Assembly: GCA_017443685.1 (NCBI GenBank)
Contig: JAFSYD010000174.1
Coordinates: 1 to 18,678 of the forward strand
DNA: 18,678 bases
Origin: Lachnospiraceae bacterium
Lineage (GTDB): Bacteria > Bacillota > Clostridia > Lachnospirales > Lachnospiraceae
Direction of reading: 5' to 3'
A program made the position numbers and the translations under genes. This document shows, in pieces, positions 16,745-18,678 of this stretch. How positions within the stretch are numbered: position 1 is the first letter of the stretch; each line of letters opens with the position of its first letter. Below the pieces are notes generated by a model. It was not told the DNA's origin and searched no databases. It saw nothing but the letters and a program-made list of their open reading frames with translations.

Positions 16745-17611
16745 ATGTATCCTGCTATGAACCGCTCCCCAAAAGAGCTCATCTCTTTGAATCTACATTT
16801 TTTGCTTGAGCTGTATAACCGCTCCCGCCGTGACGTGTGTGAGGATCTTCGCTTAAGCTACACTACTTTCTGCGACTGGTACAACGGCAAGACCTATCCC
16901 CGCATCGAGAACCTCGAAGCCATCGCCTATTATTTTCGGATCGAGGCGAGAGATTTTTTTATTGAAATTGAAAAGAATGCTCTTCTGGTCGGGCGGCTTT
17001 CGGCCTACGCGGAATCACTGGGTGTCCGCTTACGGGATTCGGATAATCCGCATTTTACGGTGGAAGATTATAACGAGACGCCGGAGGGATATCCGGTAGA
17101 GCTGATATGCGGGAAATTTTTCATTATGGAACCGCCGAATATCAAGCATCAGACGATTGTCATGGAGCTTTCTGCCGAGATACGCAATACGATCCGTCAG
17201 CGAGGCGGCAAATGCCGGGTCTTCCCGGGACCGTTCGATGTGGAACTGCCGACAAAGGAAGCCTCGGTCGTTGTTCCCGACATTACGATCATCTGCGACA
17301 GCAGCAAGCTGACATTCAAGCGCTGCGTCGGCGCACCGGACTGGATTGTCGAAGTACTCTCCGAGCGTACCGCCAAAAAGGATCAAAAAGAAAAGCTCGC
17401 AGCCTATGAAGAGGCAGGCGTCCGCGAATACTGGATCATTGACCAGTTTCACGATTCCATCACCGTATACTCGCTTTCCGAAGCCGGCGGCGTGAACACC
17501 TATGGCATTCCGGCCATCTATGCCTTTACAGATCCTGTCCCTGTCGGGATCTATGAAGATTTTTCCATCTGCCTCGCCGAACTCGACATCGATCTCGAGA
17601 TCAGCGAGTAG
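16745..17611 (+). CDS. XRE-type HTH fused to Uma2-family (DUF820) PD-(D/E)XK nuclease-like domain
   Basis: The first 75 of 288 residues look like a Cro/C1-type helix-turn-helix (LISLNLHFLLELYNRSRRDV, then LRLSYTTFCDWYNGKTYPRIENLEAIAYYF). Residues about 105-270 match the Uma2 family: VELICGKFFIMEPPNIKHQ with Glu119, VVVPDITIICD with Asp179, GAPDWIVEVLSERTAKKDQKEKL with Glu203, Asp213 and Lys217, and AAYEEAGVREYWIID. The PD...E-x-V core suggests a nuclease-like fold with likely metal ligands present, but the cellular role of the family is unknown. Most Uma2 proteins are about 190 aa without the HTH (recalled). AAAGGGGG lies 7 nt before ATG 16745. Two palindromic operators on its promoter suggest self-regulation. 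Confidence 0.85.
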   Translation: MYPAMNRSPKELISLNLHFLLELYNRSRRDVCEDLRLSYTTFCDWYNGKTYPRIENLEAIAYYFRIEARDFFIEIEKNALLVGRLSAYAESLGVRLRDSDNPHFTVEDYNETPEGYPVELICGKFFIMEPPNIKHQTIVMELSAEIRNTIRQRGGKCRVFPGPFDVELPTKEASVVVPDITIICDSSKLTFKRCVGAPDWIVEVLSERTAKKDQKEKLAAYEEAGVREYWIIDQFHDSITVYSLSEAGGVNTYGIPAIYAFTDPVPVGIYEDFSICLAELDIDLEISE

Positions 17612-17626
17612 CGAGTGGCGGGCAGC

Positions 17627-17659
17627 GAGATTGTCACGAGATTTTCACAAGATTGTCGG
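17627..17659 (+). repeat. Three tandem 11-bp repeats between the Uma2 gene and tRNA-Pro
   Basis: GAGATTGTCAC (17627-17637), GAGATTTTCAC (17638-17648) and AAGATTGTCGG (17649-17659) are adjacent units of one 11-bp sequence, about one helical turn each. The preceding bases (about 17604-17627) also repeat AGCGAG. ATTGTCGG at 17652-17659 is inverted as CCGACAAT at 17685-17692 inside the tRNA promoter. Confidence 0.6.
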
Positions 17660-17674
17660 GTCGCAAAAAAGTAC

Positions 17675-17703
17675 TTGCGTTTGACCGACAATTGTGTTAG
17701 AAT
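17675..17703 (+). promoter_or_regulatory. Promoter of tRNA-Pro
   Basis: TTGCGT (17675-17680), 17 bp, TAGAAT (17698-17703). The tRNA 5' end is 22 nt after the -10, a normal leader length. Confidence 0.6.
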
Positions 17704-17725
17704 ACATTTCGCGTTGAAAACAGTT

Positions 17726-17799
17726 CGATGCGTGGCTCAGTTTGGTAGAGCGCTGCGTTCGGGACGCAGAGGTCGCAGGTTCAAATCCTGTCGCATCGA
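17726..17799 (+). tRNA. tRNA-Pro(CGG)
   Basis: This 74-nt cloverleaf has acceptor CGATGCG/CGCATCG (17726-17732 with 17792-17798) and discriminator A17799. The D-stem is GCTC/GAGC with loop AGTTTGGTA. The anticodon stem CTGCG/CGCAG encloses loop TTCGGGA, so the anticodon at 17760-17762 is CGG, reading proline CCG. The T-arm is GCAGG-TTCAAAT-CCTGT. CCA is not encoded. The 3' end is duplicated downstream, as at integrated elements. Confidence 0.96.
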
Positions 17800-17800
17800 T
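17782..17800 (+). repeat. Attachment-site-like repeat, copy 1 (tRNA 3' end)
   Basis: CAAATCCTGTCGCATCGAT includes the T-loop edge, acceptor strand and discriminator of tRNA-Pro plus one base. It is identical to 18027-18045. tRNA 3' ends are standard attB cores for tyrosine recombinases. Confidence 0.7.
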
Positions 17801-17806
17801 CGAACA

Positions 17807-17832
17807 AAAGAGGTACCGTTAGGTGCCTCTTT
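17807..17832 (+). terminator. Hairpin terminator after tRNA-Pro
   Basis: AAAGAGGTACC (17807-17817), loop GTTA, GGTGCCTCTTT (17822-17832): an 11-bp stem with one T-G wobble, followed by a modest T-rich stretch (CTGATTTATATA). It is a probable intrinsic terminator for the tRNA transcript. Confidence 0.65.
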
Positions 17833-17873
17833 CTGATTTATATATACGTGGTTGTCCCTGTGACCTCACAGCG

Positions 17874-17999
17874 GCGCGAACGCCCGCGTTCGGGCGCAGA
17901 GGGCTCAAGGCGTCCTGTGGACGCCTGTTTTGAGCCGACCGGAGCGAAGCGGAGACCGCAGGGCGCGGGTGTCCGGTGGACACCGCTCACGAAGTGAGC
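17874..17999. repeat. GC-rich cluster of four adjacent hairpins between the two tRNA-end repeats
   Basis: In order: CGAACG/CGTTCG with an outer GCG/CGC (17874-17897); GGCTCAA+GGCGTCC / GGACGCC+TTGAGCC (17902-17936), a 14-bp two-part stem; GGTGTCC/GGACACC (17968-17984); GCTCAC/GTGAGC (17985-17999). GCCGACCG occurs at about 17934 and again at 18003. The base composition is much richer in GC than neighbouring intergenic DNA. No credible ORF is present. It resembles palindromic intergenic repeats or a structured RNA, and its position between two copies of a tRNA end suggests it arrived by integration. Confidence 0.6.
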
Positions 18000-18026
18000 A
18001 GCGCCGACCGAGCCGGCAGGCGAGAC

Positions 18027-18045
18027 CAAATCCTGTCGCATCGAT
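18027..18045 (+). repeat. Attachment-site-like repeat, copy 2
   Basis: An exact 19-nt copy of 17782-17800, starting 245 bp after the first copy. As with the first copy, a strong hairpin begins 6-7 nt downstream. It lies on the integrase side, as expected for one end of an integrated element. Confidence 0.7.
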
Positions 18046-18050
18046 ACAGT

Positions 18051-18090
18051 AAAATCAAAGGGTTTCGGCCTTCCGAAGCCCTTTGATTTT
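18051..18090. terminator. Strong bidirectional hairpin terminator
   Basis: An 18-bp stem (18051-18068 with 18073-18090, one G-T wobble) around loop CCTT, with A-tract and T-tract at its two ends. It can end the minus-strand integrase transcript and any plus-strand transcript crossing copy 2 of the tRNA end. Confidence 0.8.
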
Positions 18091-18097
18091 GCCTTCA

Positions 18098-18117
18098 GTT
18101 CTAACTTTGTTCTAACT
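18098..18117. repeat. Direct repeat GTTCTAACT x2 beside the integrase
   Basis: GTTCTAACT at 18098-18106 and 18109-18117, an 11-bp period. Short direct repeats beside an integrase gene and att core are typical of recombinase arm-type or excisionase binding sites; this role is inferred. Confidence 0.45.
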
Positions 18118-18170
18118 CAATGTACCATTTTGCACAATTAACAGAAATAATTCCTTATGATAAATTAGCG

Positions 18171-18678
18171 TTACTCGCCGCTATAGTTCTTCGGCTGGAT
18201 GATATTCTCCATCCCGCTTAAAATCTCTTGTTTGGCTTCTTTATCTTTGACCTTTGCATAGATTTTCAGCGTTGTCTCAATATCTGCGTGCCCCACCCAC
18301 TTTTGAATACGCTTTACATCAAATTTTTCGTGTACAAGGATCGATACGCAGGATGTTCGCAGCCCGTGGAAAGTAATTCTCTGCGGCAATTCCGGGTGTG
18401 CTTTGATAATTTTGCCAAATGCCTTCGTCGGATAGTCGGGATAGAAAAGCGAACCATCCTAATGGTTAAAAATGTAATCATTCACAATATAGGCATTTCC
18501 GAAAAGTTTTCGGTTCTCTCGTTCTTTTTCCTTAAGATGTTGGAACATCATAACCTGTGCCGCGTTCAGCGGATATGTCCGTGCGCTTGTCTCCGTTTTT
18601 GTTGTGTTGAGTCTGTTGATCGTCGTCCCCTTTGTCACCGTATGATTAATGACAAACTGCTTCCCGATAAGATCAATA
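18171..18678 (-). pseudogene. Tyrosine recombinase/integrase, 3' part, interrupted by in-frame TAG
   Basis: Integrases of this family carry out site-specific recombination of integrative elements. The minus strand from the right edge reads in one frame through IGKQFVINHTVTKG and TKTETSARTYPL, a typical catalytic-domain stretch, to IFNH. There a TAG codon (18459-18461) interrupts it. The same frame continues with DGSLFYPDYPTKAF and FHGLRTSCVSILVHE (HxxR box), then VGHADIETTLKIYAKV with the second His and the catalytic Tyr, ending at TAA 18171-18173. Similarity on both sides of the TAG points to a single nonsense mutation or amber readthrough rather than two genes. The N-terminal arm-binding domain and first catalytic Arg lie outside the window. 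It points toward the tRNA, as usual for int next to its att site. Confidence 0.85.

Follow-up and report, generated by a model that had tools for sequence, protein, structure and literature searches.

The 245-bp block that separates a tRNA-Pro gene from the left end of an integrative element in this Lachnospiraceae contig is probably an rtT-like tRNA-tail module, in which a spare, truncated tRNA 3′ half holds two mobile palindromic units. The 3′ ends of tRNA genes are common docking sites for mobile elements, and repeated ends are readily taken for att sites; a repeated tRNA 3′ end can instead belong to a spare tail filled with mobile hairpins. The window (the whole stretch of DNA analysed, 18,678 nucleotides) is one entire contig (C70) of an incomplete MAG that is 71% complete.

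Composition of the block and the element boundary beside it

The intact tRNA-Pro(CGG) gene lies on the plus strand at 17725-17801 (ARAGORN; Rfam tRNA, 67.7 bits). Its exact 19-nt 3′ end, CAAATCCTGTCGCATCGAT, is present within the gene at 17782-17800 and again on the same strand at 18027-18045, a spacing of 245 bp, and by simple arithmetic the chance occurrence of an exact 19-mer repeat inside 1 kb is negligible. This duplication had been described in an earlier note on the same DNA and was reproduced by repeat search. The hairpins that the note had placed behind each copy were present as well; their offset, given there as 6-7 nt, was found to be 6 nt for copy 1 and 5 nt for copy 2. The hairpin behind copy 1 (t1, 17807-17832, plus strand) is terminator-like and folds directly 3′ of the tRNA. 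The hairpin behind copy 2, also terminator-like, is formed by an inverted repeat (18051-18090) within the left end of the integrative element (18046-18090, plus strand), which copy 2 directly abuts. A search for the 19-mer core AAATCCTGTCGCATCGA with at most one mismatch found no third copy in the incomplete own assembly beyond the two window sites. Directly 5′ of the tRNA gene, a Uma2-family protein with an N-terminal Cro/C1-type HTH is encoded at 16745-17611 (plus strand).

The block folded more strongly than all 200 of 200 dinucleotide shuffles (z -4.6). Local alignment to the tRNA reverse complement placed an imperfect inverted copy of the tRNA-Pro region from anticodon arm to T-arm at 17857-17883 (minus strand, score 25); when tRNA types were compared, the own-tRNA score of this inverted copy was 19, versus a mean of 12.9 and a maximum of 19 for the other types. 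Downstream of it, and entirely on the plus strand, lies a second, truncated copy of tRNA-Pro in three pieces. The first, identified by alignment to tRNA-Pro, runs from the anticodon loop to the variable region (17886-17901) and is followed by palindromic unit A (17902-17956), a 55-nt sequence with a 14-bp stem, a 4-nt bulge and a conserved tail. Unit A matched the covariance model R1 with 82.7 bits, being itself one of the 11 unit copies from which R1 was built. The second piece is the T-stem sequence CGCAG (17957-17961), and the third is the repeated 19-mer at 18027-18045. Between these two pieces, in the T-loop, sits palindromic unit B (17962-18026), 65 nt in length, with a stem, a small second hairpin and a variant tail. 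Units similar to B were seen in two other genomes of the genus (G005:C84 and G001:C93), and unit B matched R1 weakly, with 15.4 bits.

When units A and B were left out, the remaining sequence aligned to tRNA-Pro as GCGTTCGGG-CGCAGAG--CGCAG---CAAATCCTGTCGCATCGAT, and 40 of the 40 aligned bases were identical. The gaps in this alignment measured 1, 2 and 3 nt, with GT absent at unit A and GTT absent at unit B. The boundaries of both units were set from copies at other places, independently of the tRNA alignment. In a random-excision control (2000 draws), the part outside the 19-mer scored 33, versus a mean of 21.5 and a maximum of 39. The excision score by itself is not decisive, and the case for a tail copy thus rests on the base-for-base fit at independently set boundaries. 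Judged by its sequence, the block repeats the 3′ half of tRNA-Pro, with two palindromic units breaking up the copy. An Rfam search of the block returned tRNA and two matches far under their cut-offs, and in a plasmid BLAST with the tRNA plus the block, the best 20 of 119 records matched the tRNA part only. Part of the block matched other sites in the own assembly, several of them at contig ends.

A tyrosine recombinase gene pointing toward the repeats had also been noted, and a minus-strand frame with a PF00589 match bears this out. Only the 3′ part of the gene lies in the window (18171-18678, minus strand), and the gene continues past the contig end. Its C-terminal piece is a Phage_integrase domain (PF00589, E 3e-11); the upstream 72-aa piece of the frame had no match in the profile search. 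An in-frame TAG at 18459-18461 (minus strand) may mark a disrupted gene or reflect an error in the assembly.

The integrative-element boundary that the earlier note had placed at tRNA-Pro was supported by relatives. Of five other genomes in the genus, three (G003, G004 and G005) have the left end of the element directly behind the 3′ end of a tRNA-Pro gene, which in G003 is a different tRNA-Pro with anticodon AGG. An integrase is present behind the left end in G003 and G005, and the contig of G004 stops before that point. In G001 the contig stops 10 nt past the 19-mer of tRNA-Pro, inside what is seemingly the same left end, and the best tRNA-Pro match in G002 has a different sequence behind it. 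Since tRNA-Pro directly abuts the element in G003, G004 and G005, the block is an extra in the window.

Structure, distribution and mobility of the A-type unit

The A-type unit has a 6-bp outer stem and an 8-bp inner stem, separated on the 3′ side by a 4-nt bulge, together with a 3-nt loop and a tail that resembles GACCGNAGCGNAGCGGAGAC. In searches that scored only the best first-look candidates of each genome, so that copy numbers and perhaps shares are lower bounds, R1 gave 14 matches in the own assembly. With the own genome counted each time, the same searches gave matches in 21 of 61 genomes, all from the own family (21 of 37, versus 0 of 24 from elsewhere), in 109 of 250 Lachnospiraceae genomes, and in 3 of 249 genomes of a phylum-wide draw, these three too being members of the own family. 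When named genomes were scanned by pattern, the unit was found in at least 120 contigs. Among the 80 matches listed, most were titled Lachnospiraceae, the other titles being Eubacteriales, Clostridiales, Eubacterium, Coprococcus comes, Oribacterium and one Oscillospiraceae; the isolates AC3007, AD3010 and XBB2008 were also among these 80. A unit family this widespread and countable allows the spread of short, gene-less DNA palindromes to be tested, and it bears on whether the tyrT repeats of E. coli are a single oddity or a case of a general process.

Covariation was scored in two stem alignments, both fitted to R1. Across 90 distinct copies, 97.3% of 1206 cells were paired, with 296 double changes and 10 G-U cells. 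A second set of 108 distinct copies, selected by a pattern with a fixed core, had 208 double changes, and 14 of its 1485 cells were G-U. The near absence of G-U pairs suggests that the unit hairpin is maintained as DNA and not as RNA.

Two further arrangements were observed. On four contigs of the own genome (G000: C313, C245, C328 and C35; loci L009-L012), one or two units lie inside a longer dispersed repeat with inverted TGATTCAAGGGTCAAAAG-like ends. At locus L044 (G001:C253:2231-2294), the 5′ half of tRNA-Pro is joined to a unit of which only the beginning is present.

Units were also found within protein genes. A relaxase ORF carries an in-frame unit at L190:4548-4604 and at L196:4241-4297. 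In an alignment of the query with 22 homologues, chosen among 120 matches listed, the unit was present in 2 of 23 sequences (the query and its near-copy) and absent in 21, a net gain of 17 residues. A type B unit sits in an open frame of G005:C84. By the comparison of relaxase homologues, A-type units move, and they would do so as folded single-stranded DNA. BLAST of the relaxase piece against plasmids gave no match, and BLAST of the relaxase unit against phages found a single weak similarity, spanning 47 nt at 85%, to MT837213.1, a record that carries no annotation. The Rickettsia palindromic elements (RPE) are described in PMC6649704 as short palindromes inserted in protein genes with the protein left unbroken. 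In-frame insertion is common to RPE and to the relaxase unit, which 21 homologues lack. However, RPE have hosts of another phylum, and the units described here are linked to tRNA tails.

Dispersal as a short hairpin with a conserved flanking motif, a trait of REP/BIME repeats and their RAYT (Y1) transposases, is also seen in the A-type unit. In contrast to that system, no Y1 transposase (PF01797) was found in G000 (71% complete, 14 units) or G007 (94% complete, 15 units), and Y1_Tnp matches numbered zero across the unit-bearing genomes G000, G007, G018 and G022. A Y1 transposase was accordingly set aside as the partner of the unit, as a misfit with the distribution of PF01797. The proposal that all units are located in loops of flanking palindromes held only in part. 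From 98 distinct units, 92 with enough flank were taken and reduced to 47 by removing near-duplicates; 17 of these 47 sites had a pairing score of at least 6, versus 17.5% for permuted flanks, a share about twice the permuted expectation, and the mean score was 5.55 versus 4.67 (sd 0.14).

Tail modules behind other tRNA genes

The majority of units are located away from tRNA genes. Those near a tRNA gene were found mostly behind it: with a limit of 150 bp, 20 of 145 distinct units in the named set lay downstream of a tRNA 3′ end, compared with 4 upstream of a 5′ end, and in the set of relatives the corresponding counts were 16 of 105 downstream versus 1 upstream. The orientation of the unit relative to the tRNA was either way. 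Spare tails holding units were present behind tRNA-Pro(GGG) in G001:C60 and behind tRNA-Pro(CGG) in G022:C1, and modules were also found behind tRNA-Gly, -Arg, -Met, -Leu and -Lys. A case at tRNA-Thr is less clear, as the 3′ end repeat is not kept.

In the loci examined, 31 of 125 tRNA genes had a repeat of their own 3′ end of at least 11 nt within 450 bp. A unit lay between in 24 of these 31 (23 plus L059, whose unit was an identical duplicate left out of the listing), 5 were in real tandem tRNA genes, and 2 were unit-less arrays. Of 40 tRNA genes lying no more than 200 bp from a unit, 17 lacked a repeat of their 3′ end of at least 11 nt. Measured from the tRNA end to the repeat end in 24 modules (L084, with a 10-nt repeat, included and L059 left out), module length had a median of 148.5 bp and a range of 123-306 bp, the module of the window measuring 244 bp. 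Such a fairly uniform length would not be expected if tails were duplicated at random. An inverted copy of part of the own tRNA scored above the mean of other tRNA types in 18 of the 24 modules. Constant pairing of the tRNA end with the module interior to form a stem was not supported; complementarity between the interior and the last 13 nt of the tRNA was not above that for other tRNAs (p 0.43).

Tandem modules occur at L215 and L069. Tail copies in tandem were also found with no unit in them. In the own genome, three 44-bp tandem tail copies with an altered T-loop lie behind tRNA-Pro(UGG) (L008, G000:C87). Behind tRNA-Pro(AGG) at L037 (G029:C49), three extra tail copies are visible, about 75 bp apart, in an array that partly reads N, and in each of these tails an inverted T-arm is joined to a direct T-arm. 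These two unit-less arrays weaken the proposal that insertion of the unit itself creates the tail repeat. In the unit-rich genomes G030 and G032, 50 tRNA genes yielded two non-tRNA tail repeats, both with units (2 of 2), counts that would also fit a process making tail and unit together. Modules were found using the unit as bait, and the frequency of unit-less tails is thus poorly sampled.

The course of events that we favour begins with local duplication of the tRNA tail, which would give rise to spare tails. Units would then insert in the T-loop, an event that the spare copy may tolerate and the real gene may not. In the window, one unit would have inserted near the variable region and the other in the T-loop. 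The integrative element would have entered by ordinary tRNA-directed integration at the spare 3′ end; in an alternative order, the module may have formed after the element was already in place.

Alternative origins and the tail repeats of E. coli

The earlier note had raised the possibility that the 245-bp block is a satellite borrowing the recombinase of its neighbour. A micro-element that relies for its movement on a tyrosine recombinase acting in trans, whether that of the neighbour or another, would account for the direct repeats of the tRNA 3′ end at both ends of the block, a trait of integrative satellites, and for tandem copies elsewhere (L215). The composition of the block, a tRNA-tail copy with two palindromic units, argues against this proposal, as do the modules behind other tRNA genes, each of which bears the tail of its own adjacent tRNA. 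A-type units are, moreover, found away from tRNAs and inside ORFs. A link to a recombinase did not hold across occurrences: 26 ORFs starting within 900 bp of a module were listed and 20 were scanned, covering the nearest one or two ORFs per module at 18 of the 24 modules, and none of the 20 matched an integrase (PF00589). We consider a satellite very improbable. Given that the ORFs scanned beside other modules include no integrase, the integrase of the window most likely belongs to an ordinary tRNA-directed element sitting on the spare tail. The element right of 18045 is of the known kind that integrates at tRNA genes with a tyrosine recombinase, from which the 245-bp block differs in having no recombinase and in consisting of tRNA-tail sequence and palindromic units.

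The same scan bears on the view that the block was left behind by an earlier integration. In that case, the old attR of a lost element would survive as the second tRNA 3′ half, and the left end of that element would have given the hairpin behind the tRNA; the scar would later have received the units, with a second element integrating next to it. An att site usually extends from the anticodon loop to the tRNA 3′ end, which is the extent of the copy in the block, tRNA 3′ ends do serve as integration sites, and a second element is present. However, the modules behind several tRNA types are similarly short (median 148.5 bp), the ORFs scanned at the 18 loci include no integrase, and the tandem same-tail arrays at L215, L069, L008 and L037 are not predicted by single scars. 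A remnant is judged unlikely, yet such a scar is the strongest competing account of where the tail copy came from. An assembly artefact, by which tRNA, repeat and integrase were wrongly joined through the dispersed hairpin repeat, could be suspected in a fragmented MAG with several of its own unit copies at contig ends, but the order of tRNA, hairpin, tail copy with unit, and 3′ end recurs in other assemblies, among them those titled AC3007 (L215) and Coprococcus comes (L150), and this explanation is hardly credible.

A spare tRNA tail holding palindromic units, the reading preferred here, has a counterpart in the tail of E. coli K-12 tyrV. The last 19 nt of this tRNA recur three times behind the gene at a spacing of 178 bp, and RF00391 (RtT) gave four matches of 133-138 bits in the tyrT locus. 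The tyrV repeat opens with the tRNA end in inverted form, continues with AAGGTTCG, a direct part of the T-arm, and with a hairpin-rich insert, and closes with AATCC plus the tRNA end, so that the insert lies in the T-loop. The inverted copy of the first repeat scored 29 against its own tRNA versus 22 for two other tRNAs. Copies of the 3′ end behind a tRNA gene are found in both systems, and tyrV and the window module have their part order in common. They differ in sequence: RtT (RF00391) had no match at E <= 1 in window positions 16800-18678 or in nine other loci, eight of them with modules, and the best R1 score in five E. coli loci was 7.4 bits (E 0.69), so that a single sequence family comprising rtT and the window units finds no support in either search. 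An RNA product of the E. coli repeats is reported in PMC4986893, whereas in the window a terminator-like hairpin lies ahead of the module.

This difference also concerns the proposal that the block yields a functional rtT-like RNA from the tail of the tRNA operon, its hairpins being kept for RNA processing or regulation. The tyrV-like part order speaks for such an RNA, as does the role of rtT in the stringent response that is cited in PMC2965389 and PMC4986893. Against it stand the terminator-like hairpin between tRNA and module, stem covariation that proceeds nearly without G-U pairs, the occurrence of units in either orientation, and the negative RtT search in the window stretch and the nine loci. 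A functional RNA thus appears very unlikely.

A broader reading, which we offer tentatively and regard as doubtful, is that palindromic DNA elements targeting T-loops form a cross-phylum class, moved by an enzyme, of which the rtT repeats of E. coli would be another branch. Folded single-stranded hairpin units would, on the same doubtful reading, insert in the T-loops of spare tails and in other hairpin loops. If this were true, tail modules would offer tRNA-directed integrases another place to land, as in the window. A cluster of rtT-like E. coli elements is reported in PMC2965389 to belong to the BIMEs. In the open-licence literature, at the level of titles and the starts of abstracts, searches for hairpin or palindromic repeats in connection with Lachnospiraceae or with tRNA genes, and for rtT, rttR and tyrT, found no report of these palindromic units or of T-loop insertion.

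The part order of the window module is shared in part by the tail of E. coli lysV (L336), which contains a T-arm copy in inverted orientation. There, the inverted copy scored 26 against its own tRNA versus 23 and 22 for others and a 3′ end repeat lies behind a hairpin-rich insert. The argQ tail (L334) shares only the 3′ end repeat and the hairpin-rich insert, both of which are clear, whereas its inverted own copy is not (13 versus 16 and 11).
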